Both the position numbers and the translations under genes were made by a program. Source: Fulvimarina sp. (GTDB lineage: Bacteria; Pseudomonadota; Alphaproteobacteria; Rhizobiales; Rhizobiaceae). From it: a stretch of 64,000 nt of DNA. Of this stretch, positions 8,746 to 41,049 are shown one piece after another. Each line of letters begins with the position of its first letter. Positions within the stretch are counted from its first letter, which is position 1. The notes beneath the pieces are model-generated. The model was not told the DNA's origin, made no database searches, and saw nothing but the letters and a program-made list of their open reading frames with translations. The stretch lies in the NCBI GenBank assembly GCA_002700095.1, contig PACL01000054.1, positions 1 to 64,000 on the forward strand, written 5' to 3'.

Positions 8746-9038
8746 GGTCTTTCCTCGCATGTCTCGACATCACGTCGAATGGCGTCTTGCCCGCCGTCCG
8801 GGCGATCGCTGTTCCTATCTGGCAGATGAGTTGTCGCGCCGTGGCAGGGCGGCCCTGCCCCGGTCGCTTCGGCGGCGCGCCGGGTCTTCTGGATCCCGCC
8901 CGTGTACCGATCGTTTCGAAGCGGCGATCTTGCGTTACATCGATAACAACTCTGCCCCTCCCGCGAGAGCGCGATCGCATCGCTGCGGGTCACGGCAATG
9001 CAACCGGCGACTGGCTCGATCATGGGCAGAAGTCGGTG
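8746..9038. other. Intergenic region, promoter of the flavin monooxygenase operon
   Basis: This 293-bp stretch lies between the start of the monooxygenase and the stop of the response regulator, both on the minus strand. It should hold the monooxygenase promoter. A short dyad, GTTACATCGATAAC at 8934-8947, is about 190 bp upstream of the start and might be a regulator site. No gene is evident. Confidence 0.35.
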
Positions 9039-9764
9039 CTAGCGCACGACCTCGACGTCGGCGTTGAACAGGTATCCGACGCCGCGCTCGGTCCGGATCA
9101 GCTGTGGGTTGCTGGGGTCGGCCTCGAGCTTGCGCCGCAGCCGCAGGATCAGAACGTCGATGCTGCGGTCGAAGACTTCTTCGTCGTGCAGCCGGGTCGC
9201 GGCAATCAGCTGCTCCCGGCTGAGGATCTGCTGCGGCGAACGCAGGAAGGCGGTCAGGAGATTGAACTCGCCGACAGTCAGCTTGACCAGCGTCTGATGC
9301 GGAGACGTCAGGCGGCGCATGCGGACGCTGAGTTCGAAGCCGGCGAACCTGTAGCGGATCCGCTGCTGGATTTCCCGCGAGCGCCCGTCGGCGCGTTCAG
9401 AGCGCCGCAGAACGGCTCTTGTCCGGGCCATCAACTCCCGCAGGCTGAACGGCTTGGTGACGTAGTCGTCGGCCCCGAGTTCGAGCGCCACCACCCGGTC
9501 CGGCTCGTCCCGGCGCTGCCCCGTGATGATGATCACCGGCACTTGGCTGTCGGAGGAGATGCCGCGCATCAGGTCGAGCCCGTTCTCCTTGGCCAGCTGC
9601 AGGTCGAGGATGATGAGGTCGGCGGGACGCGCGTTGAGCACGCGCTTCACCGCCGGACCGTCGGGTGCGGTGCTGACCTCGTAGCCGTGATTGGTGAAAT
9701 AGGTGCCGATGAGGTCCCGCATGGCGGGATCGTCGTCCACGACGAGGATATGCCTTCCGGTCAT
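9039..9764 (-). CDS. OmpR-family response regulator (VirG-like)
   Basis: A 241-residue two-domain regulator. The receiver domain (residues 4-120) has the acidic pocket Asp10-Asp12, the phospho-acceptor Asp54 in LIILDLQ, and Lys104 in YVTKPFS. The C-terminal winged helix (about 140-235) has the TVGEFNLLTAFLRSPQQILSREQL recognition region and the closing GVGYLF. It lies 22 bp downstream of the hybrid kinase gene, its obvious partner. The layout and the kinase type resemble VirA/VirG of Agrobacterium, but no vir genes or vir boxes are visible nearby, so here the pair probably senses something else. The target is likely the operon itself or the adjacent peroxidase and oxidoreductase genes. Confidence 0.88.
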   Translation of the reverse strand: MTGRHILVVDDDPAMRDLIGTYFTNHGYEVSTAPDGPAVKRVLNARPADLIILDLQLAKENGLDLMRGISSDSQVPVIIITGQRRDEPDRVVALELGADDYVTKPFSLRELMARTRAVLRRSERADGRSREIQQRIRYRFAGFELSVRMRRLTSPHQTLVKLTVGEFNLLTAFLRSPQQILSREQLIAATRLHDEEVFDRSIDVLILRLRRKLEADPSNPQLIRTERGVGYLFNADVEVVR

Positions 9765-9786
9765 GAATGTGCCCCGTTACCGCGCG

Positions 9787-21523: not shown

Positions 21524-21991
21524 TCAGGGGGATGGCCCCTCCTCCGCGGATGCGAGGCTCGTGACTTTCGAGGCCAGCGCGATGAACTGTCGGTACTCAT
21601 CGTCGTCGAGCCCCGGAAGAATGTCCTTCTGCAGGGCCATGACCACCGGGAGCAGCTTGGCGAGCACCGTCTTTCCCTCCTCCGTCAGAGCGAGCACACG
21701 GGCCCGCTTGTCCTGCGGGCTGATGCGGCGGTCGACGAGGCCCTTCTGCTCCAGCCGCTCCAGGACGGAGCCGAGTGTGGCGCGGTCTTTCGCGACGAGC
21801 TTGGCAAGCCCCTTCTGATCGATGTCCGGATTGTGGGCGAGCGCATCGAGGGCGGCGAACTGGACCGGCGTGATGTCGTATCCCGCCGCCTCGACACGGC
21901 TGTGGAACACCATCGTCGACACCTGATGCAGCCTGCGGATCAGATGCCCCGGCATCGCCAGGCTCGTCGTTCCTGCCCTCTCCTTCGCCAT
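21524..21991 (-). CDS. MarR family transcriptional regulator
   Basis: A 155-residue winged-helix protein. The DNA-binding region is at about 50-100: VQFAALDALAHNPDIDQKGLAKLVAKDRATLGSVLERLEQKGLVDRRISPQDKRARVLALTEEG, with the usual Asp-x-Arg wing. It begins 110 bp from the divergent ring monooxygenase gene, and the space holds two copies of a TATGT-2-ACATA operator. MarR proteins of this kind repress aromatic catabolic genes and release DNA on binding the aromatic acid, so the monooxygenase is the probable target. Confidence 0.88.
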   Translation of the reverse strand: MAKERAGTTSLAMPGHLIRRLHQVSTMVFHSRVEAAGYDITPVQFAALDALAHNPDIDQKGLAKLVAKDRATLGSVLERLEQKGLVDRRISPQDKRARVLALTEEGKTVLAKLLPVVMALQKDILPGLDDDEYRQFIALASKVTSLASAEEGPSP

Positions 21992-22027
21992 CAGCCATTC
22001 CCTCGTTCATGTCCCTCGGCGAGATAG

Positions 22028-22084
22028 TATGTACACGTATCAACTTGATCCGACCACGCCCGGCGGGTATAGTATGTGGACATA
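22028..22084. promoter_or_regulatory. Two MarR operators between marR and the monooxygenase gene
   Basis: TATGTACACGTA (22028-22039) and TATGTGGACATA (22073-22084) are copies of one palindrome, TATGT-2-ACATA; the second is perfect and the first has one mismatch. Each is preceded by the same ATAG (ATAGTATGT), so the repeated unit is about 16 bp. The centres are 45 bp apart. They sit on either side of the overlapping divergent promoters, and the second ends 17 bp before the monooxygenase start codon, as a repressor site should. Confidence 0.75.
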
Positions 22085-22101
22085 TTAATCTGGGAGGATC
22101 C

Positions 22102-24066
22102 ATGCAGTACCATCTCCACGGCTTTCGCGCCGGCGATCCGGAAACGTTCGACCCTGCGCCGGGGCGGCCGGCCGCCTCGGAGCTTCCCGACTGTCTCGAC
22201 GTCCTCATCGTCGGCTGCGGGCCGGCTGGGCTGACGCTTGCCGCGCAGCTCGCCGCCTTTCCGGAAATCTCGACGCGGATCGTCGAGCGCAAGCTAGGGC
22301 CGATCGAGAAGGGCCAGGCGGACGGCATCTCGTGCAGGTCGATGGAGATGTTCAACGCCTTCGGCTTCGCCGACACGGTCAAGCGCCAGGGCTATTGGGT
22401 GAACGAGACGACGTTCTGGAAGGCAGATCCCCAGCGCCCGGAGCACATCCTGCGCACGGGCCGGGTGCAGGACGTCGAGGACGGGCTTTCCGAGATGCCC
22501 CACATGATCCTCAACCAGGCTCGCGTCCACGACATGTATCTTTCGGTGATGGCAAGGTCGCCGTCGCGGCTGGTGCCGGACTACGGCCTCGAAGTCGTCG
22601 ACGTGACAAGCGATCCGGAGGGCGGCGACCATCCCGTCACGGTCACCCTGAAGCGGGTCGCCGAGACGGCGGAGCGCAGCAACACGGATACCGCCGAGGC
22701 GTTCACCCTGCGCGCCAAATACGTCGTCGGCTGCGACGGGGCCCGCAGCGGCGTGCGACGCGCCATCGGCCTCGAGCTGAAGGGCGACTTCGCCAACCAG
22801 GCCTGGGGCGTGATGGACGTCCTCGCCGTCACCGACTTTCCCGACATCCGCTGCAAGACGCTGATCCAGGCTTCGGGCGGCGGCAACATTATCATCATTC
22901 CCCGCGAGGGCGGCTATCTCCTGCGCTTTTACGTGGAGCTGGGCGCGCTCGGAGCCGGTCAGCGGCTCGCCCGGGACGAGGTCACCGTCGACCGGCTGAT
23001 CGAGGCCGTGCAGCGGACGTTCCGGCCCTATGACTTCGCGGTCAAGGAAGTGGCCTGGTGGTCGGTCTACGAGATCGGCCAGCGCCTGACCGACCGGTTC
23101 GACGACGCAGATGAGGAAAGCGCCCAGCTGCCGCGCATCTTCATCGCCGGCGATGCCTGCCATACCCACAGCCCCAAGGCCGGCCAGGGGATGAACGTCT
23201 CCATGGGCGACGCCTTCAATCTCGGCTGGAAGCTCGTCTCGGTGCTGACCGGCCGCTCGGCGCCGGAGCTGCTCTCGACCTACTCCGAGGAGCGCCAGGC
23301 GGTGGCGCGCGATCTCATCGACTTCGACCGGGAATGGTCGCGGATCATGAGCGAGCGGGCGAGCGCGGACGCAGCCGACACGGGCGAAACGCCGAAATTC
23401 CAGCGCTATTTCGTCGAACACGGCCGCTACACCGCGGGCATGTCGGTCGCCTACAAGCCATCGGTGCTGACGGGCGAAGCGACGTGGCAGTCCCTGGCTC
23501 CGGGTTTTCCCATCGGCGAGCGACTTCATTCCGCCCCGGTGATCCGCCTCGCGGATGCCAAGCCCATGGAACTCGGCGAGACCATCCTGGCCGACGCGCG
23601 CTGGCGGCTCTATGCCTTCGCCCCAGCGGCGGACCAGGCGGCCGAAGGATCGGCCATCCGGTCCCTGTGCGACTATCTGGCGTCGGATCCGGCCTCGCCG
23701 ATCCTGCGCCATACTTCGGCGGGTTCCGACGTCGATGCGACGATCGACGTCCGGGTGGTCTTCCCACAGGCGGCGAAGGACATCGCTCTGGAGACGATGC
23801 CGCCGCTCCTGCTGCCCAAAAAGGGTCGCCTGGGTCTCGTCGACTACGAAAAGACATTCCGCCGAGACGACGCTCCCGGCCGGGACATCTTCGAGCTCAG
23901 AGGCATCGACCGGCAGGAGGGCTGCCTCGTGATCGTGCGACCCGACCAGTATGTCGCGCATGTATTGCCGCTGAACGCCTACGGGGAGCTTGCCCGCTTC
24001 TTCGCCGGCGTCCTGTTACCGGCCAACGCTGCGCGAACACCCGATTCCGAAACGGCCGCCGCCTGA
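22102..24066 (+). CDS. FAD-dependent phenol hydroxylase-type monooxygenase, probably 3-hydroxybenzoate 4-monooxygenase
   Basis: A 654-residue group A flavin monooxygenase with three regions. The FAD fold VLIVGCGPAGLTLAAQLA is at about 35-52. The DG motif region has VVGCDGARSGVRRAIG at about 212, and FIAGDACHTHSPKAGQGMN binds FAD at about 350. The C-terminal third is the thioredoxin-like domain of the phenol hydroxylase subfamily. Length and N-terminus (MQYHLHGFRAGDP, then a DVLIVG fold) resemble 3-hydroxybenzoate 4-monooxygenase (MobA), which makes protocatechuate. GGGAGGATCC before the ATG at 22102 sets the start; an in-frame upstream ATG lies in the operator region. Control by the divergent MarR is likely. 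The nearby gallate-type lower pathway suggests that the product could also be a trihydroxybenzoate. Confidence 0.85.
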   Translation: MQYHLHGFRAGDPETFDPAPGRPAASELPDCLDVLIVGCGPAGLTLAAQLAAFPEISTRIVERKLGPIEKGQADGISCRSMEMFNAFGFADTVKRQGYWVNETTFWKADPQRPEHILRTGRVQDVEDGLSEMPHMILNQARVHDMYLSVMARSPSRLVPDYGLEVVDVTSDPEGGDHPVTVTLKRVAETAERSNTDTAEAFTLRAKYVVGCDGARSGVRRAIGLELKGDFANQAWGVMDVLAVTDFPDIRCKTLIQASGGGNIIIIPREGGYLLRFYVELGALGAGQRLARDEVTVDRLIEAVQRTFRPYDFAVKEVAWWSVYEIGQRLTDRFDDADEESAQLPRIFIAGDACHTHSPKAGQGMNVSMGDAFNLGWKLVSVLTGRSAPELLSTYSEERQAVARDLIDFDREWSRIMSERASADAADTGETPKFQRYFVEHGRYTAGMSVAYKPSVLTGEATWQSLAPGFPIGERLHSAPVIRLADAKPMELGETILADARWRLYAFAPAADQAAEGSAIRSLCDYLASDPASPILRHTSAGSDVDATIDVRVVFPQAAKDIALETMPPLLLPKKGRLGLVDYEKTFRRDDAPGRDIFELRGIDRQEGCLVIVRPDQYVAHVLPLNAYGELARFFAGVLLPANAARTPDSETAAA

Positions 24067-24282: not shown

Positions 24283-25272
24283 TCAGTTGCCCTTCAGCGC
24301 TTCGACGAAGGCCGTCGCTTCGATCCCCGAGCCGTCCGCCTCGGAAATGACGCGCTCGACCACCGGGGCCGACGCCGCGTCGAACTTCGCGGCCTCTTCG
24401 GCGGGCAGAGTGATGACTTCCTTGCCGTCCGTGGACCCGAAATCGGCGAGCACCGTCTCCGCGGTCGATTTCCATGCGTCATGCCCGTGGCGTGCGGCCT
24501 CGCGTCCGGCCTCAGTCACGGCCTGGCGTTGCTCGTCGGTCAACTCGCCGAGCGCGTCGCGGTTCATGATCAGGAAGAAGCTGGAGATCGTCGTCTTCAT
24601 GCCCTGCGTCACGAAGTTGGTGACCTCGCCGAGCTTGAACGCCTTCAGCGCCGTCGCATCGATCATCGCGCCGTCGATGACGCCGGTCTGCATGGCGTTG
24701 TAGATTTCCGGCGCCGGCATCGAGACCGGCGTCGCGCCCCAGGCCTCGACCACCAGCCCGGCATTGCGTGAAGGCACGCGGATCTTCATGCCCTTGAGGT
24801 CTTCGAGGGTCCGGATCGGCTTGCTGGCCGACAGGAGCAGATTCGGCGCGTTGTTCCACAGCCCGAGCAGCGCGACGCGGCGATACTCGTCGGACAGCAT
24901 GTCCATGTTGGCGAGGATGTGCTCCGTTCCCGTTGCGGCGTTGATCACGCCGGGCAGTTCGGTCAGAAGCGTCTTCGGGAAGTTGGCGGCGGTGTAGCCC
25001 GGCAGGCCGAAGGCGATGTCGGTGACACCCTCGACGGTCCGGTTGTACTGTTCGGACGGTCCCGGGCCGAGTTCGCCGCCCATATAGAAGGTGACGGTGA
25101 CCGCGCCACCCGTCGCCGACTCCACGGACGTCTTGAACGGCTCGTAGACCGAGCCGACGACGAAGTGGCTCGGCGGCTGGAAGTCGGCGAGCTTGAGGTT
25201 CTGGGCGGACGCCAGCGGCGCCGCCACGAGTGCCGCCGCCGTGACGGCTGCCTGCATTGCTGTCTTGAACAC
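24283..25272 (-). CDS. TRAP transporter solute-binding protein (DctP family)
   Basis: A 329-residue periplasmic protein with a signal peptide cut after ASAQ (residue 24). The DctP features are visible: GELGPGPSEQYNRTVEGVTDIAFG, LKGMKIRVPSRNAGLVVEAWGATPVSMPAPEIYNAMQTGVIDGAM (with the Arg that binds the carboxylate), and the closing helix region. TRAP systems bring in organic acids with sodium. The start is a GTG at 25272 with an excellent AGGAGGAAACGAC upstream. It is the last gene of a Q-M-P order operon, downstream of the aromatic-pathway LysR, and therefore probably binds the aromatic or ring-cleavage acid handled by the divergent operon. Confidence 0.9.
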   Translation of the reverse strand: MFKTAMQAAVTAAALVAAPLASAQNLKLADFQPPSHFVVGSVYEPFKTSVESATGGAVTVTFYMGGELGPGPSEQYNRTVEGVTDIAFGLPGYTAANFPKTLLTELPGVINAATGTEHILANMDMLSDEYRRVALLGLWNNAPNLLLSASKPIRTLEDLKGMKIRVPSRNAGLVVEAWGATPVSMPAPEIYNAMQTGVIDGAMIDATALKAFKLGEVTNFVTQGMKTTISSFFLIMNRDALGELTDEQRQAVTEAGREAARHGHDAWKSTAETVLADFGSTDGKEVITLPAEEAAKFDAASAPVVERVISEADGSGIEATAFVEALKGN

Positions 25273-25339: not shown

Positions 25340-26644
25340 TCAACCGAACATCGAATTGGGAAGCAGGAGCGCGATCCCGGGGATCGCGATGATCAGCAAG
25401 AGGCCGACGATCATCGCGATGAGGAAGGGCATTACCCCTCGAAAGATGGTTGTGAGCGGCACGTCTTCGGCGACGCCGCGCACGACGAAGACATTGAGCC
25501 CCACCGGCGGCGTGATCATGCCCATCTCGATGACGATCACCGCGACGACGCCGAACCAGATCGGATCGAAGCCGAAGGCGACGATGACCGGGAAGACGAT
25601 CGGGATGGTGACGACCAGCATCGACAGCCCGTCCATGAACATGCCGAGGATGAGATAGGCGATGATGATGACGAAGAGCGTGCCATAGGCGCCGAAACCG
25701 AGCTCGACGAGGCCGTCGCCGAGCGCTTCCGGAATGCGTGTGATGGCGAAGAACGGGTTGAGGACGTTCGCGCCGATGACGATCATGTAGAGCATCGCCG
25801 AGGTGCTGAGCGTATTCAGCACCGCTTCCTTGAACCCGGCGAAGGTCAGCCGCCGGCGGGCGAGAGCCAGGAGGATGACCAGCGCGGCCCCGACGCCCGA
25901 AGCCTCGACCGGCGTGAAGACACCGGCATAGATCCCGCCGATCGAGACGACGATGATCGCCAGAAGCGGTGCGGCCTGGCCGAGAACGCGGAAGCGCTCG
26001 CCGAGCGGCACCGGCTCGCCGCGCGGACCGGCCTTCGGATCGAGCGTCGCGACGATCCAGATCGCGCCGATGAACAGCCCGGTCAAAAGCAGCCCCGGCA
26101 GGATGCCGGCCATGAACAGGCGGCCGATCGATTCTTCGGTGAGGACGGCGTAGAGCACGAAGCCGGTCGAGGGCGGGATCAGGAAGCCCAGCGTACCGCC
26201 CGCGGCGATGGCTCCGGTGGACAGGCTCGGCGCATAGCCGAGACGGCGCATCTCCGGCAGCGCGACCCGTCCTAGGGTCACCGCCGTCGCGACGGACGAT
26301 CCGGAGACGGCTGCAAACACCGCGCATCCGAGGACCGAGGCCGAGGCGAGCCCGCCCTTGAACCGGCCGACCCACGCGAAGGCGGCGTCGTAGAGGCCGC
26401 GGCTGAAGCCGGCCACCGCCGAAATGTTGCCGAGAAGGACGAACATCGGCACGATGATGAGATTGTAGTTCGCAACGGCGGAATAACTCTCGGTCAGGAG
26501 CACGCCGCCCGCGCTGCGCATCCCCTCCAGCGCCCAATAGCCGAAGAAGCCGGTGGCCAGCATGGCGAAGGCGACCGGCGTCCTGATGATGAGAAGAGCG
26601 AACAGGCAGGCGATGCCGAGGAGGCCGACGGTGACCGGCATCAT
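25340..26644 (-). CDS. TRAP transporter large permease (DctM family)
   Basis: A 434-residue integral membrane protein with 11-12 hydrophobic segments and the DctM hallmarks: RTPVAFAMLATGFFGY near the start, YNLIIVPMFVLLGN, GSSVATAVTLGRVALPEMRRLGY, GGTLGFLIPPSTGFVLYAVLTEESIGRLFMAGILPG and GMITPPVGLNVFVV. It forms the channel of the importer. Its start ATGATG overlaps the stop of the small permease gene. A frame running back to 27232 is open but overlaps DctQ and is not coding. The binding protein follows 67 bp downstream. Confidence 0.92.
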   Translation of the reverse strand: MMPVTVGLLGIACLFALLIIRTPVAFAMLATGFFGYWALEGMRSAGGVLLTESYSAVANYNLIIVPMFVLLGNISAVAGFSRGLYDAAFAWVGRFKGGLASASVLGCAVFAAVSGSSVATAVTLGRVALPEMRRLGYAPSLSTGAIAAGGTLGFLIPPSTGFVLYAVLTEESIGRLFMAGILPGLLLTGLFIGAIWIVATLDPKAGPRGEPVPLGERFRVLGQAAPLLAIIVVSIGGIYAGVFTPVEASGVGAALVILLALARRRLTFAGFKEAVLNTLSTSAMLYMIVIGANVLNPFFAITRIPEALGDGLVELGFGAYGTLFVIIIAYLILGMFMDGLSMLVVTIPIVFPVIVAFGFDPIWFGVVAVIVIEMGMITPPVGLNVFVVRGVAEDVPLTTIFRGVMPFLIAMIVGLLLIIAIPGIALLLPNSMFG

Positions 26645-27141
26645 TGCTGCGGGCCTTTCGCGATCAGGACGAGGGCCTGGGCCGCGAAGACCAGGGCGCA
26701 CAGCGCCGTGCCCGCGGCGAGGATCGCGTAATAGGGCCAGAGCGGCATCCGCAGCATGTTGGTGGCGTCGCCCCATTCGAGGGCGTCGAGCGTTTTCAGC
26801 ACCCCGCGGTGGGTCAGGATGGCGAGGATCATGACCGCGATGCCGCGCGACAGGAGGTCGCCGAGAAGCCGGCCCCACGCCCCGAGCATGCCCTCGAACA
26901 CGTCGACGGCCACGTGATCGCCGCGGGCCGTGCAATAGGGAAGCGCCGACATGACCAGGGCGACGGCAGTGAGTTCGACGATCTCGTTCACCCCGAGCAG
27001 GGGCGCCCCGAAGACGTAGCGCGACACCACGCCCGCCGTCACCACGACAACCATGCCGAGGAGGCAGAGGCCGCCGATCACCGTCAGTCCGATCGTCACC
27101 TTCTCCAGGCGGTTGGACAGCCGTTCCAGTCCTCTCAGCAT
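26641..27141 (-). CDS. TRAP transporter small permease (DctQ family)
   Basis: A 166-residue membrane protein with four hydrophobic segments (about 17-40, 53-70, 93-112 and 130-155). It carries the DctQ pattern VVSRYVFGAPLLGVNEIVELTAVALVMSALPYCTARGDHVAVDVF. It partners DctM. GAGGGGAGGAACC precedes the start at 27141. It is the first gene of the transporter operon, 122 bp downstream of the LysR stop, and a LysR-type box overlaps that stop codon. Confidence 0.9.
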   Translation of the reverse strand: MLRGLERLSNRLEKVTIGLTVIGGLCLLGMVVVVTAGVVSRYVFGAPLLGVNEIVELTAVALVMSALPYCTARGDHVAVDVFEGMLGAWGRLLGDLLSRGIAVMILAILTHRGVLKTLDALEWGDATNMLRMPLWPYYAILAAGTALCALVFAAQALVLIAKGPQQ

Positions 27142-27252: not shown

Positions 27253-27267
27253 ATAAGATGATGCTAT
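27253..27267. promoter_or_regulatory. LysR-type T-N11-A box before the TRAP operon
   Basis: ATAAGATGATGCTAT; read on the other strand it is ATAGCATCATCTTAT, which matches the box at 29392 at 13 of 15 positions. It overlaps the stop codon of the LysR gene and lies about 112 bp before the first transporter gene. This is the usual distance for a LysR recognition site. Confidence 0.6.
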
Positions 27268-28439
27268 GACGCCTCGTGAGCGGCCCGGCCTCGGATCAGG
27301 TCGAGAAGCATCGACTGCGCCCGTGTTGGCGCCCAGTTCTCGCGATAAGTCAGCCCGATCGGACGTCCGGGCCAGCGCGTGCCGACATCGATTTCGGCGA
27401 CGAGGCCCTTCGAAATCTCTGCAAGAGCCTGTTGCCCGGAGATGCAGCCAAGATGCTCGCTCGCGGCAACGATTTCGCGCATCAGAAGGATCGAGCCGGC
27501 CTCGATGATGCCGGCCGGGAGTTCGATACCGCGGAAGAAGGCATCGAACTGGAGCCGCGCGGGCGTTCCCTCGCGTGGTACCACCCACGGAAAGGCGGAC
27601 AGCGCCTCGCGAGATACACCGGTTCGCCCGACGAGCGGATGATGATTGCCGGCGATGATCGTCAGGTGGTCGTCGAAGAGCCGTTCCTGGACGACGTCGC
27701 CGATCGGCGCCGGCTGGCGGAGCGCGCCGACGATGACGTCGATGTCGCCGCGCCTGAGCCCCGTCAGGAGTTCGTCGTAGAGGCCGTCGACGACGAGCAC
27801 CCGCTGTCCCGGGCGCAAGGCACGGAAGGCGACGAGCGCCTGCGGCAGCAGAGCCGAGCGGGCAAGCGGAAGCGCGCCGATGACGATGCGCCCGGCGTCG
27901 CGCCCGGCAAATTCCGCCAGATCCGCCTCCGCTTGGTCGAATTCGCGGAACGCCAGGAGGACGGCGCGCGCCAGCGCCGTCGTCTGGCGGGAGGCGACCA
28001 TGCCGAATGACATCCGCTCGAACAGCCTGCGCCCGGCCTCCCGCTCGAGCAGCGTGACCGCCCGGTGGACCGTGGGCTGCGCGAGTCCCAGCCGGCGGGC
28101 AGCCAGCGTCACGTTCTCGGTCTCGACGACGGCGGCCAGCGCCTGCAACTGGGCCATGGTCGCCGTGAGTTTCAGGCGCGGCGAGATGTCGGCAAGCGCC
28201 GGATCGAGACGATCGAAGGCCCTCCGCAGCCGGTCGACGAGCGCGCCGCCCCTCGGCGTGACGAAGAAACCCTGCCGCGTCCGGTCGAAGAGCGGGCCAC
28301 CGAAGTCCCGCTCGAGCTTGCCGATCGCCTGCGTTACCGCCGGCTGCGAGACATGGGCGGCCTGGGACGCGAGAGTCAGCTTGCCGGTATCGGCGACCGC
28401 GAGAAACAGTCGCAAGTGGCGGAGGTTGCGGGAAATCAC
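27264..28439 (-). CDS. LysR family regulator with two tandem N-terminal HTH domains
   Basis: A 391-residue protein, about 90 longer than a normal LysR. Two winged-helix units follow one another: the first at about residues 5-75 (HLRLFLAVADTGKLTLASQ, then SQPAVTQAIGKLERDFG), the second at about 90-160 (LQALAAVVETENVTLAARR, then AQPTVHRAVTLLEREAG). A single effector domain begins near residue 178 (GRIVIGALPLARSALLPQAL). The start is a GTG at 28439 that overlaps the stop of the DUF1932 dehydrogenase gene (GTGA). Its position between the dehydrogenase and the transporter, with similar T-N11-A boxes before both operons, makes it the regulator of this aromatic-acid regulon. Confidence 0.88.
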   Translation of the reverse strand: MISRNLRHLRLFLAVADTGKLTLASQAAHVSQPAVTQAIGKLERDFGGPLFDRTRQGFFVTPRGGALVDRLRRAFDRLDPALADISPRLKLTATMAQLQALAAVVETENVTLAARRLGLAQPTVHRAVTLLEREAGRRLFERMSFGMVASRQTTALARAVLLAFREFDQAEADLAEFAGRDAGRIVIGALPLARSALLPQALVAFRALRPGQRVLVVDGLYDELLTGLRRGDIDVIVGALRQPAPIGDVVQERLFDDHLTIIAGNHHPLVGRTGVSREALSAFPWVVPREGTPARLQFDAFFRGIELPAGIIEAGSILLMREIVAASEHLGCISGQQALAEISKGLVAEIDVGTRWPGRPIGLTYRENWAPTRAQSMLLDLIRGRAAHEAS

Positions 28440-29332
28440 AACCGGTTCAAGAGCGCGTCGGCGCGGGCCGCCAGGCCGCGATCTCCGGCAGCCGGATCCT
28501 CGCCTTCGAAGACAAGGCCGAGCGCGCCGATCTGCCGCTGCCAGGCGGCGATGGCCGCGCTCATGCGGGGCGGCAGGCCGAGCGCTGCGACCGTCTTCTC
28601 GACCTCCTCCATCTCGGCCGCCCGGCGGCTTCCGTGGGCCGTCATCCGTTCGAGATTGTAGCTCGACCGGGCCTGCCAATCGAAGCCAGGATCGGACGCC
28701 TGCAGGGAGGCGAGGACCTGGTCCTCGACTCCTGCCCTCCGCGCCGCCAGGATGCATTCGGCCGTCAGCGCCTCGAGACCCTTTATCATCACCGAGCGCA
28801 ACATCTTTATGGCCGACGCCTGGCCGACCTCCAACCCGGCGACGGAGGCATTCATGTCGAGCGCCGCAAGAACCGCGAGCCCGGCTTCGGCATGCGGGCC
28901 GGCGATGAGGATCGGGACGCGATGTCCCTTCGGATGCACCGGCGCCATGATCGCCATATCGACGTAGCGCCCGCCGGCGGCTTCGATGATCGCTGCCGCC
29001 TCCCGCTTGCTGTCCGGGCTGCAGCTGTTGCCGTCGAACCAGAGCGCGCCGGGAACGAGCGACGCCGAGGCCTCGCGCGCCGCGACCACCGCCTGGTCCG
29101 CGGTCACCAGGCAGAACACCGTCCCTGCCCCGGCGAGCGCGTCTGCAGCCGACGGACAGCCCGAGATGCCGGCCTCCCGACACCGCGCCGCCATCGCCTC
29201 GCGAGTTTCGCTTGCCGCCGTCTTGATGTCGAAGGCCGCCAGGGTGTCCCGGGCGACCGGCCAACCGGCGCTGATCGTCCGTCCTGCCTCGCCGAAGCCG
29301 ATGATGGCGATCCGTCCGCTCACTTGCGTCAT
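28436..29332 (-). CDS. NAD(P)-binding dehydrogenase with DUF1932 domain
   Basis: A 298-residue protein of the 6-phosphogluconate/hydroxyisobutyrate dehydrogenase type. The Rossmann motif IAIIGFGEAGRTISAG is at about residues 7-22. The middle has FDGNSCSPDSK and YVDMAIMAPVHPKGHRVPILIAG. The second domain (about 185-270) is the DUF1932 helical region (KMLRSVMIKGLEALTAECILAARRAG). Such genes recur in protocatechuate and gallate clusters of alphaproteobacteria, where their reaction is not established. The start at 29332 (MTQVSGRIAI) is preferred over one 12 codons earlier because the Rossmann fold begins directly after it. The gene is divergent from the galB-like operon and shares its LysR box. 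Confidence 0.8.
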   Translation of the reverse strand: MTQVSGRIAIIGFGEAGRTISAGWPVARDTLAAFDIKTAASETREAMAARCREAGISGCPSAADALAGAGTVFCLVTADQAVVAAREASASLVPGALWFDGNSCSPDSKREAAAIIEAAGGRYVDMAIMAPVHPKGHRVPILIAGPHAEAGLAVLAALDMNASVAGLEVGQASAIKMLRSVMIKGLEALTAECILAARRAGVEDQVLASLQASDPGFDWQARSSYNLERMTAHGSRRAAEMEEVEKTVAALGLPPRMSAAIAAWQRQIGALGLVFEGEDPAAGDRGLAARADALLNRL

Positions 29333-29391
29333 TCCCGTGGTCCTCCTCGCGTCTGACCTGTCGCACAAACGCGCTCGGAAGAGGAGCGGCT

Positions 29392-29406
29392 ATAGCATGA
29401 ACTTAT
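29392..29406. promoter_or_regulatory. LysR-type T-N11-A box in the divergent gal/dehydrogenase promoter
   Basis: ATAGCATGAACTTAT lies 60 bp before the dehydrogenase start and 80 bp before the hydratase start. It matches the box at 27253 (read on the opposite strand) at 13 of 15 positions, and both are followed on the plus strand by GACGCC. A single LysR protein probably acts at both. Confidence 0.6.
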
Positions 29407-29485: not shown

Positions 29486-30220
29486 ATGTCCGCCCAGAAA
29501 ACCGCCCTCGTGATCTCCGCCCATGCCGCCGACTTCGTCTGGCGCTGCGGCGGCGCGATCGCGCTCCACGCCGACAAGGGCTATGCGGTCACGGTCCTCT
29601 GCCTCTCCTTCGGCGAGCGCGGCGAGAGCGCCAAGCTGTGGAAGCAGGAGGGCATGACGCTTCAAAGGGTCAAGGACGAGCGCCGCAAGGAGGCCGAGGA
29701 GGCCGCAAGGGTGCTCGGCGTCCACGATCTCGTCTGCCTCGATCTCGGCGACTATCCGCTGGAGTTCTCCCGCGGCAACAAGATGAAGATCGTCGACGTG
29801 ATCCGGCACGTGCAGCCGGCCTTCATGCTCTCCCATTCGCGCTACGACCCCTACAACACCGATCACATGAACACGACCCAGGCAGTGCTCGAATGCCGGA
29901 TGATCGCCCAGGCCTGGGGGCACAATCCGGGTGAGAAGGTGCTCGGTGCGCCGCAGCTCTATCTGTTCGAACCGCATCAGACCGAGCAGATGGGCTGGAA
30001 GCCCGACACCTTCCTCGACATCACCCCGGTCTGGGAGAAGAAGCGGGCGGCGATCGAGGCCATGCAGGGCCAGGAGCATCTGTGGGAATATTACACCCGC
30101 GTCGCCATCAACCGCGCCAATCACTTCAAGCGCAATTCCGGCGGCCAGTCAGGCGGGCGGGACTGCCGCTATGCCGAAGGCTTCGAATCCGTCTTCCCCC
30201 GCACGGTGGACGAGCTCTGA
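29486..30220 (+). CDS. galB: 4-oxalomesaconate hydratase, PIG-L family (GalB-like)
   Basis: A 244-residue PIG-L superfamily protein. The metal motif, HPDD in deacetylases, reads His13-Ala-Ala-Asp16 followed by FVWRCGGAIALHA. Further on come VLCLSFGERGESAKLWK, DLGDYPLEFS and the second metal segment YDPYNTDHMNTTQAV. These sequences match the GalB type, which hydrates 4-oxalomesaconate to 4-carboxy-4-hydroxy-2-oxoadipate in gallate degradation rather than removing acetyl groups. The next genes encode the aldolase for that product and the tautomerase that makes the substrate, which supports the assignment. It is the first gene of the operon, reading away from the LysR box at 29392. Confidence 0.85.
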   Translation: MSAQKTALVISAHAADFVWRCGGAIALHADKGYAVTVLCLSFGERGESAKLWKQEGMTLQRVKDERRKEAEEAARVLGVHDLVCLDLGDYPLEFSRGNKMKIVDVIRHVQPAFMLSHSRYDPYNTDHMNTTQAVLECRMIAQAWGHNPGEKVLGAPQLYLFEPHQTEQMGWKPDTFLDITPVWEKKRAAIEAMQGQEHLWEYYTRVAINRANHFKRNSGGQSGGRDCRYAEGFESVFPRTVDEL

Positions 30221-30257: not shown

Positions 30258-31220
30258 ATGAACACGCCGACGACCACCAGCTTCGACATCGCCCATCTCG
30301 GCCATGTCGAGATGCTGACCGACCGCTTTGAGGAGAGCCTCGACTTCTTCACGCGGGTCTATGGGCTGAAGCTCTCCGGCCAGGACGGGACCTCGGCCTA
30401 TCTGCGCGCCTGGGACGACTACGAGCACTGCTCCTTGAAACTGACGCGCTCGGACAGGACCGGCGTCGGCCATGTCGCCTATCGTTCAGCCTCGCCGGAA
30501 GCCTTGGAGCGCCGCGTCGCCGCGATCGAGGCTTCGGGCTACGAGATCCATGGGTGGATCGAGGGTGACGACAGCCACGGCCGCGCCTTCCGCTTCGAGG
30601 ACCCGTTCGGCCACGTCTTCGAGATCTACTACGACACGGTCTGGTACGAATCGCAGGAAGCCGCCGAAAAGCCCGCGCTCAAGAACACCGCCTCCTCCTT
30701 CACCGGCGCCGCGCCCCGCCGGATCGACCATCTGAACCTTCTCGCCGAGGATGTCGGCGAATTCCGCCGCTTCATGGAAACCTGCCTCGGCAGCCGCGTG
30801 ACGGAATACATCCAGCTCGACAACGGCCGGATCGGCGGCTGCTGGTTCACCGTCAACAACAAGACCTACGACCTCGCCTGCACCGAGGAGCACGGCAAAG
30901 GCCACGGCCGCTTTCACCACGTCACCTACGCCACCGACCAGCGTGAGGATATCCTGCGCGCCGCCGACATCTTCCTGCAGAACGGCGTCCACATCGAAAC
31001 CGGGCCGCACAAGCACGCGATCCAGGGCACCTTCTTCCTCTATGTCTGGGAGCCGGCCGGCAACCGGGTCGAACTCGCCAATGCCGGCGCCAGGCTGATC
31101 CTGGCCCCCGACTGGCAGCCGGTCGTCTGGACCGAGACCGATCGGAAGAAGGGACAGGCCTGGGGTCTGAAGACCATCGAGACATTCCACACCCACGGCA
31201 CGCCGCCGGTCAAAGCCTGA
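30258..31220 (+). CDS. VOC-type extradiol ring-cleavage dioxygenase, candidate gallate/protocatechuate-type dioxygenase
   Basis: A 320-residue two-domain vicinal oxygen chelate protein. The C-terminal domain keeps the iron triad of type I extradiol dioxygenases: His158 (RRIDHLNLL), His221 ([10 protein letters not shown]) and Glu272 (GNRVELAN), with a Tyr at 262 (LYVWEP). The N-terminal domain (residues 10-130) is the non-metal repeat, [13 protein letters not shown] and [14 protein letters not shown]. In known gallate and protocatechuate-4,5 pathways this step uses the unrelated LigAB type. The gene is 37 bp after galB and 14 bp before the aldolase gene, so it is clearly part of the pathway. 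No LigC or LigI homologue is present, so the ring-cleavage product should be 4-oxalomesaconate itself. The fold is secure; the substrate is inference. Confidence 0.85.
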
Positions 31221-31234
31221 GGAAGGGCGACGTC

Positions 31235-31942
31235 ATGGCCTTCGACATCCATTCCATCGCGCCGCACGCGCCGGGCTACGTGGTTCAGGACGTTCAGCGC
31301 GCCGATCCGTCGGTGATCGCCGCCCTCGCCGAAGCCGGTACCTCGACGGTCCACGAGGCGCAGGGACGGACCGGCTATCTCGGCAGCACGCTCCGCCCCA
31401 TCCAGGCGGGCGCGCGCATCGCTGGCTCCGCGGTCACCATTTCCTCGCCGCCCGGCGACAACTGGATGCTGCATGTGGCGATCGAGCAGTTGCGGGACGG
31501 CGACATCCTCGTGCTCGCGCCGACCAGCCCCTGCGACGATGGCTATTTCGGCGATCTGCTGGCGACGAGCGCCAAGGCCCGCGGCTGCCGCGGCCTGATC
31601 ATCGAGGCAGGTGTCCGCGACGTCGCCGATCTGAAGGCGATGAGCTTTCCGGTCTGGTCGAAGGCGGTGTCCTCGCAAGGCACGATCAAGGAGACGCTCG
31701 GCTCGGTGAACGTGCCGATCATCTGCGGCGGCCAGCTGATCGAGGCCGGCGACGTCATCGTCGCCGACGACGACGGCGTCTGCGTCGTCAGGCGGGCCGA
31801 TGCCGCATCGGTCGCCGAAAAGGCCAGGGCCCGCACCGACAACGAGGAGGCCAAGCGCCAGCGCCTCGCCGCCGGCGAGCTCGGCCTCGACATCTACTCC
31901 ATGCGCGGGCGGCTGGCCGAAAAGGGCCTCAAATATGTCTGA
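31235..31942 (+). CDS. galC: 4-carboxy-4-hydroxy-2-oxoadipate aldolase (GalC/LigK type)
   Basis: A 235-residue RraA-like class II aldolase. Visible features are [38 protein letters not shown], the active-site loop [31 protein letters not shown] (Gly-Asp-Leu-Leu, then Arg-Asp that binds the metal and substrate), and [26 protein letters not shown]. The enzyme splits 4-carboxy-4-hydroxy-2-oxoadipate into pyruvate and oxaloacetate and can decarboxylate oxaloacetate. It is the last step of the gallate or protocatechuate-4,5 route. The stop overlaps the start of the tautomerase gene by eight bases. Confidence 0.88.
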
Positions 31943-33032
31943 AGCGCCTCGCCCGGCGACCGCGCCTCTCGATCCGGTGCATGACGGCATTCCCTGCCTC
32001 TGGATGCGCGGCGGCACCTCGAAGGGCGCCTATTTCCTGGCAGCCGACCTGCCGGACGAGCCCGCCGCCCGCGACGACCTTCTCCTGCGGATCATGGGTT
32101 CGCCCGACCCGCGCCAGATCGACGGCATCGGCGGTGCCGATCCCCTGACCTCCAAGGTCGCGATCCTTTCGCCGCCCAGCCGCGACGACGCCGACGTCGA
32201 CTATCTCTTCCTGCAGGTCTTCGTCGACCAGGCGCTGGTGTCGGACGCACAGGGCTGCGGCAATATCCTAGCCGGGGTCGGCCCGGCGGCGATCGAGCGC
32301 GGCCTCGTTGCCGTCGCGGGCGCGGAAACGCTTGTCCGCATCCACATGCTCAACACCGGCGAGGTCGCCAACGCCCGCATCCAGACGCCGGACGGCCGCG
32401 TTTCCTATGCCGGTGAGGCTGCGATCGACGGCGTACCGGGCCATCATGCCGCGGTGCCGCTGATGTTCCAGAACATTGCCGGCTCGATGTGCGGCGCCCT
32501 GCTCCCCACCGGCAATACGGTCGACGTCATCGACGGCGTCGAGGCGACGCTGATCGACAACGGCATGCCGATCGTGGTCATGCGGGCGAGTGATCTCGGG
32601 ATCGACGGTTCGGAAAGCCGCGCGGCGCTGGAAGCCAACGCCGAGCTGAAGGCGCGGCTCGAAGCGATCCGGCTGAAGGCCGGTCCGATGATGAATCTTG
32701 GCGACGTGACCGAGAAATCAGTGCCGAAGATGACGCTGGTCTCGCCAGCCAAAGCCGGTGGCACGATCTCGACCCGCAGCTTCATTCCCCATCGCTGCCA
32801 CGCGACCATCGGCGTCTTCGCCGCCGTCTCCGTCGCGACAGCTTGCACGCTGGAGGGGACCCCTGCCGGCGAGATGATCGGCCCGCATCCCGATGGCCGC
32901 TTCCTGATCGAGCATCCGACCGGCGCCGCCGAAGTCCTCATCGAGCGGGACGAGGCAGGTCTCGTGACGGGTGCCGGCGCGTTGCGCACCGCGCGCAAAC
33001 TCTTCGACGGCCGCGTGTTCCCCAGCCGGTAG
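31935..33032 (+). CDS. galD: 4-oxalomesaconate tautomerase (GalD), PrpF family
   Basis: A 365-residue PrpF/AcnD-accessory family isomerase with the diaminopimelate-epimerase fold. The start of the domain, [22 protein letters not shown] (about residues 18-39), is typical, followed by [32 protein letters not shown] and [21 protein letters not shown]. GalD interconverts keto and enol forms of 4-oxalomesaconate, giving the substrate of GalB. The ATG at 31935 lies inside the end of the aldolase gene. The frame reads further upstream but that part overlaps the aldolase. Confidence 0.87.
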
Positions 33033-38091: not shown

Positions 38092-41049
38092 ATGCGTCTC
38101 AGCCGCAAGACCGTCCAACCGGCAGCACACCCCGTTGAGTTCACCTTCGACGGACGGCCGCTCTCTGCCCTGCCGGGGGAGACGATCGCGGCTGCGCTGG
38201 CGGCGAACGGCATCGCGGCGATCCGCCGATTCGATGCCGGGGCGCCGGGTGAGGAAAGCTGGCGCGGCCTCTATTGCGGCATGGGCGCCTGTTACGACTG
38301 CGTCGTGACGGTGGACGGCAGAGCCGGGCAGCGCGCCTGCCTGACGAAGATTTCGGGCGGCGAGACCATCCGTTCGTCCCAGCCGACGGGAACCCCGGAC
38401 GACAGGCTGGCGCCTCTGGCAGCGCTGCCCGCCGAGGCGCCGCGCGAAGAAATCGGCGTCGACATCCTCGTGGTCGGCGCAGGACCCGCGGGAATGGCGG
38501 CGGCGCTCGCCGCCCGGCGGGTCGGTGCTTCGGTAACGGTAATCGACGAACGCGCCCAGGCGGGCGGGCAGTATTACAAGCCGCTCGCGCCATCCCTGAG
38601 TGCGGCCGAGCAGCCGGACCGGCAGTTCCGCCGCGGCGCCGAGCGCTTCAAGGCCCTTGAAGACGCGGGCGCGACGCTCGTTCAGGGTGCTCTCGTCTGG
38701 GGCGCTATCCGCCCCGACGAAGTTCTGACCCTGGTCGAGGGGCGCGAGGTCGTCTATCGGCCGAAACGGCTGATCCTCGCCACCGGCGCCTATGAGCGCC
38801 CCTATCCCATTCCCGGCTGGACCCTGCCCGGCGTCATGACAACGGGTGCCGCCCAGACCCTGTCGCGCGCCTATGGCGTCTCGCCCGGCCAGCGTGTCGT
38901 CGTCGCGGGCAATGGACCGTTGAATCTCCAGCTTGCCGCCGACCTTGCGGCCCATGGCGTAACGATCGTCGCTGTCGTCGAGGCCGCGCCACGGCCCGGC
39001 CTCGGCAAATGGCGTAGCCTCGCCCGGGCGGGCCTTGCGGCGCCGGATCTTTTGCTCGAGGGCGCAAAATATCGGGCGGTGCTGGCAAAAAGCGGCACGC
39101 CGATCCACTGGGGCCATGCCGCCGTCGTAGCGAAGGGAAATGGGCGGCTCGAAAGCGTCGCCATCGCCCCGCTCGGCGCTGACGGCGAGGCCGACGTGGC
39201 GCGCGCGATCGAACTTCAGGCCGACACCCTGTGCCTCGGCTACGGCTTCGTCGCGTCGGGCGAGATCGCAAGGGCGCTCGGCTGCCGAACGGTCCACGAC
39301 CCACGTCATCTCGGTACGCCTGCCATCTGGACCGGCGCGAACGGCGAGACCAGCCTGTCCGGCGTCTATGCCGTCGGCGACGGCGCCTTCGTCGCCGGCT
39401 CCCGCGTCGCCGAGGCCACGGGCACCATCTCGGGCGCCCATGCGGCCGAGACGTTGGGGTACGGCGCGGCTTCCGCCGTCGCCGATCGGGCGCGCCGCGA
39501 GCTCAAGACCGCCCGTTCCTTCCAGCTTGCGCTATGGGACCTTTTCGCCGCGCCGCCCGTCCCGCTGACGGGGGTCCCGGACGAGACGATCCTCTGCCGC
39601 TGCGAAGGCCTGACTTTCGGCCGGATCCGAAGTGAGATCGATGCCGGCTGGGACAGCCTCGGCACGCTGAAGCGGCGCACGCGTCTCGGCATGGGGCGCT
39701 GTCAGGCTCGCTACTGCTCGGCGACGGCTGCCAGGCTCATCGAGGAGCGAACCGGGCGCAAACGGGAGGTCGAAGGCTTCGCCCCGCGCCTGCCGGTCAA
39801 GCCTTTTCCCGCCGCCGCGCTCGCCCGCCAGAAGCCGGAATGGGGCGGCCATGCGAGGGCCGGTTCCCCCAATCTCGCCCGGGCGCCCGAAGCCGAGCCC
39901 TTCGGCACGATGGAAGCCGCGATCGCCGTCATCGGCGGCGGCGTTGTCGGCGCATGCCTTGCCTATGAATTCGCCCATGCCGGCAAGGACGTCCTCGTCA
40001 TCGAGCGCGACGACGTCAATCTCCAGGCCTCGGGCGCCAATGCCGGCAGCCTGCATGTCCAGCTGCTCTCCTTCGATTTCGGCAAGAAGGCCGAGGCGGG
40101 TGGCGGCCCGGCCGCCGACACGCTGCCGCTCGGCCCCTATGCCGTCAGACTCTGGCAGGAGATCGCCAAGGCCTGCGGCGGCGACTTCGAAATCCGCGTC
40201 ACCGGCGGCCTGATGGTGGCAGAAAGCGAAGCCGGCATGGCCTTTCTGAAGGCAAAGGCCGAGGTGGAGCGCCGCCACGGCATCGACGCCCATATCCTTG
40301 GCCGGTCGGAGCTGCGCGATCTGGCTCCCGGCCTTTCGGAGGAGCTGATCGGCGCCGAATACGTCGCCGAGGAAGGCAAGATCAATCCGCTGACGGCGAC
40401 CTATCGCACCTTCGAGGCGGCAAAGGCCGCCGGCGCGAGGTCGCTGCGCGGCACAAACGTCACCGCCATCGAACGGGACGGCGCGGCCTGGACGATCACC
40501 ACCCAGCGCGGCACCATCCGCGCCGGCACGGTGATCAACGCTGCCGGCCCCTGGGCACGGGAAATCGGGGCGATGGTCGGCCTCGACGTGCCGGTCTACA
40601 GCGCGCCGCTGCAGATGATCACCACCGAGCGCGCCCCTGCCCTGATCGGCCAGCTCGTCGCCCATGCGGACCGGCATCTTTCGCTGAAGCAGCTTTCCAC
40701 CGGCGGCATCCTGATCGGCGGCGCCTGGCCGGCCCACTATGCCGAGCATCAGCGCCTCAACACGACGATGCTCGACAGCATCGAGGGCAATCTCTGGGTC
40801 GCCCAGCGCGTCGTGCCGCAGATCGCGGGCCTGCATGTCCTGAGGAGCTGGGCCGGCATGAACGTCAATATCGACGGCGCGCCGATCGTCGGCGAGGCGC
40901 CCGGCCTGTCCGGCTTCTACAACTGCGTGACCTCCAACGGCTACACGCTGGCGCCCGCCGTCGCGCGCCTCACCCGCGAACTCGTCACCCACGGTTCGGC
41001 GAGCTTCGATGTCGCCCCTTACCGCCTCGAACGCTTCGACAGGAGCTGA
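38092..41049 (+). CDS. Three-in-one fused dehydrogenase (HcnA-HcnB-HcnC type)
   Basis: A 985-residue protein that joins what are normally three subunits. Residues about 12-105 are the small ferredoxin-like subunit with a [2Fe-2S] motif (LYCGMGACYDC, later Cys in QRACL). Residues about 120-560 are the large subunit: FAD fold ILVVGAGPAGMAAALAARR, NAD-type fold VVVAGNGPLNLQLAADL, and a BFD-like iron-sulphur segment ILCRCEGLTFGRI through GRCQARYCSAT. Residues about 608-985 are the DAO-type subunit (IAVIGGGVVGACLAYEFAHAG, SGANAGSLHVQLLS, and the closing NGYTLAPAVARL). Separate-subunit relatives are hydrogen cyanide synthase, opine oxidases and D-hydroxyproline dehydrogenase. It opens an operon with the ABC ATPase three bases later. 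Confidence 0.88.
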   Translation: MRLSRKTVQPAAHPVEFTFDGRPLSALPGETIAAALAANGIAAIRRFDAGAPGEESWRGLYCGMGACYDCVVTVDGRAGQRACLTKISGGETIRSSQPTGTPDDRLAPLAALPAEAPREEIGVDILVVGAGPAGMAAALAARRVGASVTVIDERAQAGGQYYKPLAPSLSAAEQPDRQFRRGAERFKALEDAGATLVQGALVWGAIRPDEVLTLVEGREVVYRPKRLILATGAYERPYPIPGWTLPGVMTTGAAQTLSRAYGVSPGQRVVVAGNGPLNLQLAADLAAHGVTIVAVVEAAPRPGLGKWRSLARAGLAAPDLLLEGAKYRAVLAKSGTPIHWGHAAVVAKGNGRLESVAIAPLGADGEADVARAIELQADTLCLGYGFVASGEIARALGCRTVHDPRHLGTPAIWTGANGETSLSGVYAVGDGAFVAGSRVAEATGTISGAHAAETLGYGAASAVADRARRELKTARSFQLALWDLFAAPPVPLTGVPDETILCRCEGLTFGRIRSEIDAGWDSLGTLKRRTRLGMGRCQARYCSATAARLIEERTGRKREVEGFAPRLPVKPFPAAALARQKPEWGGHARAGSPNLARAPEAEPFGTMEAAIAVIGGGVVGACLAYEFAHAGKDVLVIERDDVNLQASGANAGSLHVQLLSFDFGKKAEAGGGPAADTLPLGPYAVRLWQEIAKACGGDFEIRVTGGLMVAESEAGMAFLKAKAEVERRHGIDAHILGRSELRDLAPGLSEELIGAEYVAEEGKINPLTATYRTFEAAKAAGARSLRGTNVTAIERDGAAWTITTQRGTIRAGTVINAAGPWAREIGAMVGLDVPVYSAPLQMITTERAPALIGQLVAHADRHLSLKQLSTGGILIGGAWPAHYAEHQRLNTTMLDSIEGNLWVAQRVVPQIAGLHVLRSWAGMNVNIDGAPIVGEAPGLSGFYNCVTSNGYTLAPAVARLTRELVTHGSASFDVAPYRLERFDRS

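Follow-up and report, generated by a model that had tools for sequence, protein, structure and literature searches.

A VOC-family extradiol dioxygenase encoded in a gal operon of Fulvimarina is a candidate gallate dioxygenase unrelated to GalA and LigAB

The DNA that we analyzed, called the window below, is a stretch of 64,000 nucleotides on contig C87 of a Fulvimarina sp. genome (5.62 Mb in 100 contigs, 93.3% complete). Its features of interest are listed in Table 1. Four genes, galB, a gene for a VOC-family (type I) extradiol dioxygenase, galC, and galD, follow one another with only 37 bp between galB and the VOC gene, 14 bp between the VOC gene and galC, and an 8-bp overlap of galC and galD. 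Because the gaps are short and the last two genes overlap, the four are likely to be a single operon. GalC and GalD both scored above the curated cut-offs of the models for LigK and for 4-oxalomesaconate (OMA) tautomerase. GalB is a putative assignment, made from its PIG-L domain and its kept linkage to the other genes; a GalB-specific model was not among the Pfam and NCBIfam matches. The gene order is identical in two named relatives, Jiella mangrovi (L009), with 92% identity, and Aurantimonas manganoxydans (L010), with 93%. The VOC protein of a genome of the host's genus (G392) is identical to that of J. mangrovi.

TABLE 1 Genes and regulatory features in and around the gal operon of the window
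Positions	Strand	Feature	Evidence and remarks
22102..24066	+	FAD aromatic hydroxylase, phenol 2-monooxygenase type	NF006144, 975.5 bits (cut-off, 560); possible feeder, loosely linked
24283..25272	-	TRAP solute-binding protein (dctP), proposed gallate uptake	PF03480, 147.2 bits
25340..26644	-	Putative TRAP large permease	ORF; order as in annotated TRAP genes
26641..27141	-	Putative TRAP small permease	ORF; order as in annotated TRAP genes
27264..28439	-	GalR-like LysR regulator	Two HTH_1 domains; GTG start assigned manually; ORF family common to GalA-type loci
28436..29332	-	DUF1932/6-phosphogluconate-dehydrogenase-like NAD(P) oxidoreductase, divergent	PF09130, 74.3 bits; PF03446, 37 bits; start codon assigned manually
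29391..29406	+	Operator-like site TATAGC-N3-W-N2-TTAT, candidate GalR box	Between DUF1932 gene and galB; conserved
29486..30220	+	galB, PIG-L type OMA(enol) hydratase	PF02585, 88.2 bits; found in 77 of 87 VOC loci
30258..31220	+	VOC (type I) extradiol dioxygenase, proposed gallate dioxygenase	Ligands His158, His221, Glu272; Tyr204 at the usual His200 position
31235..31942	+	galC/ligK, 4-carboxy-4-hydroxy-2-oxoadipate aldolase	NCBIfam TIGR02798, 362.3 bits (cut-off, 304.5)
31935..33032	+	galD, 4-oxalomesaconate tautomerase	NCBIfam NF033377, 516.9 bits (cut-off, 440); ATG at 31935

The VOC gene is intact and encodes a protein of 320 amino acids with two tandem glyoxalase/dioxygenase modules (Pfam PF00903, E value of 1.4e-22, two stretches). 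In a HMMER alignment His158, His221, and Glu272 fall on His155, His214, and Glu267 of HPCD, the homoprotocatechuate 2,3-dioxygenase (HpaD) of B. fuscum, which we take to be the metal ligands of that enzyme. All three residues are invariant in the 88 core sequences of the family. The protein shares the two modules and the 2-His-1-Glu triad with catechol 2,3-dioxygenases of the XylE type but is only 28% identical to XylE of pWW0, and its 301.9 bits against the corresponding equivalog model (TIGR03211) fall just below the cut-off of 320.2. Against the HpaD model (TIGR02295) it scored 194.8 bits, far below the cut-off (321.4). An AlphaFold model made with 23 close sequences was poor (mean pLDDT of 54.6, with most of residues 139 to 320 below 50), and its fold matches, which include several crystal structures of HPCD His200 variants, would back the VOC fold only.

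The regulator encoded beside the operon has the HTH_1 domain twice, followed by a LysR_substrate domain, as has the regulator of a GalA-type locus (L089), which, rather than P. putida GalR, was the protein used for comparison. The doubled HTH_1 ahead of the substrate domain was thus seen in both of the LysR proteins scanned, one from a VOC locus (the window) and one from a GalA-type locus (L089:12092-13339). Upstream of the operon, a small putative MarR-like ORF and the hydroxylase gene of Table 1 together occupy positions 21524 to 24066 of the window. A hydroxylase of this phenol 2-monooxygenase type, likewise paired with such an ORF, lies near 5 of the 87 other VOC loci described below. We assume that the enzyme resembles 3-hydroxybenzoate 4-hydroxylase and that it could convert 3,5-dihydroxybenzoate to gallate.

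We searched the whole host genome for the usual ring-cleavage genes and their partners. There was no match to LigA, although the identical search recovered LigA in two other sampled genomes (G012 and G297), and no match to LigI at an E value of 1e-10 or better. With a LigC query, only partial matches were obtained, three in number and all weak (28 to 32% identity). A single host gene encodes a LigB domain; it is closest to the 4,5-DOPA-extradiol-dioxygenase model (187 bits, below the cut-off of 233) and was not matched by the LigB profile made from lig and gal clusters. Since 7% of the genome is missing and the rest is in many contigs, the absence of these genes is strong yet not absolute. Contig C12 encodes both subunits of protocatechuate 3,4-dioxygenase above their cut-offs (375.9 versus 296.4 bits and 233.8 versus 126.3 bits), so in this host protocatechuate has another route that does not need the VOC enzyme. 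The preliminary description of the window had reported a VOC dioxygenase gene flanked by galB and galC, with the His158-His221-Glu272 triad of the protein intact, in an operon with GalB, GalC, and GalD homologues and with no LigAB-type gene, LigC, or LigI. All of this holds up, and the search of the full genome that it proposed extends the absence of LigA and LigI to the whole assembly and leaves one LigB gene, of the DOPA type.

To place the window among other gal and lig clusters we drew 398 genomes from across the phylum. GalD above its cut-off was present in 58 of them, at 63 places, and the window and the 62 regions outside it were scored with profiles made from these regions. galC was also present in 37 of the 63 regions. 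Among these 37 clusters, 7 had the VOC gene without LigB, 24 had LigB without VOC, 1 (L103) had both, and 5 had neither. The eight VOC clusters include the window and a cluster from the same genus (L116). The nearly complete mutual exclusion of VOC and LigB gave a Fisher P value of 5e-4 (1.4e-3 minus the window and 4e-3 minus the window and L116), a calculation that ignores relatedness. VOC was found in none of the 26 regions that had galD without galC.

The two kinds of cluster also differ in the genes downstream of ring cleavage. LigC was in 0 of the 8 VOC clusters versus 20 of the 24 LigB-only clusters, and LigI in 0 of 8 versus 22 of 24. In five regions LigB and LigA are in a single chain, as in GalA; these lack LigC too, and two of them (L089 and L091) have a match to the LigI profile. 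The VOC clusters thus have the gene content of gallate clusters. DUF1932 accompanied both kinds of OMA pathway, being present in all 8 VOC clusters and in 17 of the 24 LigB-only clusters, although it is not known to catalyze any step of that pathway.

At the level of genomes, all nine in the sample that encode a VOC protein with at least 67% identity carry GalD above its cut-off, compared to 58 of 398 overall. Seven of the nine have neither LigA nor a cluster-type LigB. Both are present in G012 and G297, and in G297 LigAB is located away from the VOC cluster; the one cluster that holds both VOC and LigAB is L103. The same-genus genome G392 has no LigA, and its only LigB match is outside the cluster-type profile; genome searches of G265, G307, and G382 gave no LigB or LigA match. 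LigI relatives occur elsewhere in six of the nine VOC genomes, the host excepted, with 63% identity in G262 and 30 to 50% in the others.

Five clusters had neither enzyme nearby. One (L120) is truncated at the end of its contig, and in the genome of another (L121) the VOC gene is on a different contig. The other three (L119, L131, and L140) have galC and galD, with galB in L131 and L140, and no VOC or LigB gene lies within about 10 kb of them. LigB genes are present elsewhere in the genome of L119, but the L131 and L140 genomes (G313 and G238) encode no LigB domain and no VOC of the window type. These three clusters may use a third ring-cleavage enzyme or act on a different substrate, and so there may be at least one further solution. 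Because they are unexplained, a dioxygenase missing beside gal genes can have other causes.

We then assembled 87 VOC loci, consisting of the best 80 of at least 391 confirmed candidates from species genomes and 7 chosen from 312 plasmid records. Several of the contigs are short. galC was present in 79 of these loci, galD in 78, galB in 77, and all three in 76. A GalR-type LysR gene was found in 64 and DUF1932 in 50; tannase-family genes were found in 6, a LigI-like gene in 4, LigJ in 2, and LigB in 1; LigA and LigC were found in none of the 87, short contigs included. Seven VOC copies had no galB, galC, or galD in the stretch covered (L007, L019, L040, L047, L060, L074, and L077), and here, too, some contigs are short. 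Given the recurrence across genera, we rejected a chance neighborhood of the VOC and gal genes.

Several of the genes that travel with these loci bear on the substrate. The tannase gene lies between galC and galD in two Paracoccus loci (L011 and L014), directly after galC and at the contig end in L057, and after galD in L013, L017, and L005, an Agrobacterium plasmid. The L005 tannase matched PF07519 with 437.9 bits, and the other five were assigned by sequence grouping with it. O-demethylase genes of the LigM/DesA family lie within 10 kb in 6 of the 87 loci; of the two scanned, that of L041 was above the LigM cut-off (615 versus 580 bits) and that of L023 was under both cut-offs. TRAP transport genes were present in 35 loci, a branched-chain-type ABC transporter in 5, and a GalT-like MFS transporter in 4. 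On a Pantoea piersonii plasmid (L008), the VOC gene is the only ring-cleavage gene in a 19-kb stretch, beside a transporter gene and with no LigB there. The galB, galC, galD, GalR, DUF1932, and aromatic-acid transporter genes of L008 are 52 to 85% identical to those of GalA-type clusters (L089, L091, and L096). L008 appears to be the cleanest case of a replacement.

The operator-like site upstream of galB did not occur in 100 shuffles of the window. Of the 78 galB-bearing VOC loci (window included), 51 have it no more than 300 bp from the start of galB, a count that is partly circular because we defined the motif by inspecting 11 of the upstream sequences by eye; its near-absence from control regions is not circular. 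Among those controls, the 26 LigB regions (0.51 Mb) contained it twice and the 26 galD-only regions (0.51 Mb) not at all. The window and the VOC loci together contain 74 sites. Of these, 54 are at most 400 bp from a galB start, 13 are that close to a dctP start, and 2 are that close to a VOC start; 5 of these were counted twice, and 10 sites were near none of the three. As the window has this single site, there is none at its TRAP operon. A study of P. putida (PMC9942251) names OMA, and not gallate, as the effector of GalR. If OMA is the effector, an OMA-making enzyme would be needed to turn on such an operon. The arrangement suggests that the operon is driven by the GalR-like LysR protein, which probably responds to OMA like its P. 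putida counterpart, and that in some loci the same protein would also drive the TRAP uptake genes via the shared operator.

Cleavage of protocatechuate at the 4,5 bond yields a semialdehyde, and LigC and LigI are needed to take it to OMA. Gallate has a hydroxyl on the carbon that is cleaved, and OMA is formed directly. Therefore, a cluster that has kept GalB, GalC, and GalD and lost LigC and LigI points to gallate. The substrate, product, metal, and regulation proposed here for the VOC operon are read from its observed gene content, gene order, conservation, and metal triad and from the observed absence of LigA, LigI, and cluster-type LigB. On that basis, we consider it probable that the VOC protein is a gallate dioxygenase unrelated to GalA and LigAB and that it passes OMA to GalD, GalB, and GalC without LigC and LigI. 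It would be an Fe(II)-dependent (possibly Mn(II)-dependent) type I enzyme, holding gallate by two neighboring hydroxyls at the metal of His158, His221, and Glu272 and inserting O2 into the adjacent ring bond. As the cleaved carbon bears the third hydroxyl, the product would be an acid, the keto form of OMA, and not a semialdehyde, so that the LigC dehydrogenase and the LigI lactonase would be unneeded; GalD, GalB, and GalC would then convert OMA to pyruvate and oxaloacetate. The preliminary description had proposed, provided that the protein cleaves gallate, a nonhomologous replacement of the gallate-cleavage step, and the genomic evidence (the absence of LigA, LigI, and cluster-type LigB, the recurrence of the cluster, the tannase genes, and the Pantoea plasmid) mostly favors that proposal.

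Some points count against this reading. The tannase and O-demethylase links were each found in just 6 of 87 loci, L103 has both enzymes, and some VOC copies stand alone. Tyr204, discussed below, could mean an altered reaction. One characterized catechol 2,3-dioxygenase (C23O) is described as inactive on pyrogallol (PMC8671467).

The preliminary description also allowed for a methylated analogue of gallate. The main substrate might be 3-O-methylgallate from the syringate branch, with a methyl ester as the product and an esterase to release OMA, and the O-demethylase genes near 6 of the 87 loci fit such a route, as does a Roseomonas relative (61% identity) that adjoins an alpha/beta hydrolase gene and has a Rieske oxygenase gene about 5 kb off. 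However, LigM itself would yield gallate, the operon has no constant O-demethylase or dedicated esterase, and neither is encoded between galB and galD of the window. Since LigI is missing as well, a methylated analogue is less likely to be the main substrate, and we regard it as improbable.

Quite improbable, too, is cleavage of protocatechuate at the 4,5 bond, with DUF1932 or another oxidoreductase standing in for LigC. The hydroxylase in the window and near 5 of the 87 other loci could supply protocatechuate, DUF1932 is an NAD(P)-binding protein encoded next to the operon, and most of the VOC genomes have a LigI relative somewhere. Against this, 14 of the 37 clusters have both DUF1932 and LigC; DUF1932 therefore does not simply take the place of LigC, and we rejected it in that role. 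Protocatechuate as the main substrate was rejected because the host has no LigI and no close LigC but does have protocatechuate 3,4-dioxygenase; the tannase links also favor gallate.

We think it very unlikely that the VOC protein just rides in the operon as a common dioxygenase for catechol or homoprotocatechuate or as an enzyme that detoxifies pyrogallol-type compounds. Its best NCBIfam model is indeed catechol 2,3-dioxygenase, and a relative with 63% identity (L158) is above the cut-off of that model (366.1 versus 320.2 bits). Yet the window protein itself is under the cut-offs of both that model and HpaD, it has Thr248 in place of HPCD Arg243, which we take to be a contact to the substrate carboxylate, and the products of catechol cleavage do not enter the GalB, GalC, and GalD steps. 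Moreover, without the VOC gene seven of the eight sampled VOC clusters would have no ring-cleavage gene. That a LigAB or GalA gene hidden in the missing part of the assembly does the step is hardly credible, even with one sampled VOC cluster holding LigAB, because G392 likewise lacks LigA and a cluster-type LigB, and the searches of G265, G307, and G382 gave no match to either domain.

The active site of the VOC protein departs from that of the characterized type I enzymes. In the HMMER alignment, Tyr204 falls on His200 of HPCD, Thr248 on Arg243, His253 on His248, and Tyr262 on Tyr257, so the last two residues, like the triad, are shared with HPCD and the first two are not. We take His200 to be the second-sphere acid/base histidine of HPCD and its presence to be a feature of the characterized type I members rather than of the fold; the window protein has Tyr204 instead of this otherwise conserved residue. 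The tyrosine is present in all 88 core sequences, in 10 further rows (L157 to L166), and in a Roseomonas row, the latter 11 with 61 to 64% identity. Histidine is found in the rows for pWW0 XylE, HpaD, Thermus, Rhodococcus, Geobacillus, and L167 (48% identity), and also in AphC (7Q2A) and the RHA1 2,3-dihydroxybiphenyl dioxygenase (3LM4), both of which are 27 to 28% identical to the window protein. The solved structure nearest by sequence is PDB 9WGJ (323 amino acids; E value of 1.5e-106), deposited as "Catechol 1,2-dioxygenase," which in the alignment also has the tyrosine and a C-terminal GQAWG stretch. It was absent among the 50 fold matches listed for the AlphaFold model, and we found no mention of it in open-access papers.

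In a tree made from a subset of 63 rows, the tyrosine-bearing rows are on one branch (support of 100/95), which splits into a side with L157 to L166 and Roseomonas and a side with the gal operons; the outgroup branches are long. The gal label requires nine changes on this tree, so the association with gal genes is imperfect. Tyr204 appears to mark a distinct VOC subfamily, and a tyrosine at the position of the catalytic histidine would seem to be a new feature. It is a guess that this residue is adapted to the third hydroxyl of gallate. We lean toward the view that the clade is an independently evolved gallate dioxygenase in which the change of the catalytic histidine to tyrosine allows trihydroxylated (pyrogallol-type) rings to be opened by a modified proton transfer and which would thus be both a replacement for GalA/DesB and a new catalytic variant. 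Many variants of HPCD at position 200 have been solved, and a natural histidine-to-tyrosine change at that position gives a direct handle on the role of the residue.

GalA of Pseudomonas putida KT2440 and DesB of Sphingobium SYK-6 resemble the window protein in the proposed reaction (gallate to OMA), in the setting with galB, galC, galD, and GalR, and in having no need of LigC. They are type II (LigB/LigA) enzymes, whereas the window protein belongs to the VOC superfamily and has no match to PF02900 or PF07746. Although superfamily, pathway, and reaction are each known, we did not find their combination, or any type I gallate dioxygenase, in the open-access literature. PraA, the protocatechuate 2,3-dioxygenase, is an extradiol enzyme that acts on a carboxylated catechol, but it cleaves a different bond and belongs to a different pathway.

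Gallate is a central product of tannin breakdown and a node in the breakdown of syringyl lignin. If our reading is true, the VOC enzyme is a second, independently evolved solution to gallate ring opening in many soil, plant-associated, and marine bacteria, and the putative gallate dioxygenase is widespread in the Alphaproteobacteria and is also carried on plasmids. The genes are annotated merely as "VOC family protein" or "catechol 2,3-dioxygenase." Homologue surveys search for LigB-type genes (PMC12314914). They would therefore count as gallate negative some enterobacterial plasmids and members of four families (Rhizobiaceae, Aurantimonadaceae, Paracoccaceae, and Roseobacteraceae) in spite of an apparently complete pathway with a different first enzyme.

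The wider VOC family may not be uniform, given the mixed context of L157 to L166, which are 10 VOC loci (62 to 64% identity) from two genera of the host's order, perhaps Bradyrhizobium-like. Four of the 10 have galB (with galC in 3) and a LigI-like amidohydrolase gene without galD, and 6 have no gal genes. The four (L157, L158, L160, and L166) consist of genes for the LigI-like amidohydrolase, galB, galC (undetected in L166), an NMT1-like protein, and the tyrosine-type VOC. The L158 amidohydrolase is nearest to 4-sulfomuconolactone hydrolase (293 bits, under the cut-off of 500), and these clusters possibly serve a different substrate. On a Chimaeribacter arupi plasmid (L007), a VOC gene at positions 8995 to 9975, with 76% identity, follows a LysR gene and has a pirin-family gene close by; no gal gene lies within 9 kb of it. 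On a Roseomonas mucosa plasmid (L171), genes for a class III extradiol dioxygenase, an alpha/beta hydrolase, and the tyrosine-type VOC (61%) adjoin one another, together with DUF1932 and an ABC transporter and with the Rieske oxygenase gene about 5 kb on; this may be a syringate/3-O-methylgallate cluster.

Elsewhere in the window, at positions 38092 to 41049, there is an ORF of 985 amino acids that by eye is an apparent fusion of a 2Fe-2S/FAD oxidoreductase and amino-acid-oxidase-like parts. It adjoins a dihydrodipicolinate-synthase-like gene and a gene for an ABC transporter ATPase, and the operon around it looks like one for amino acid catabolism.
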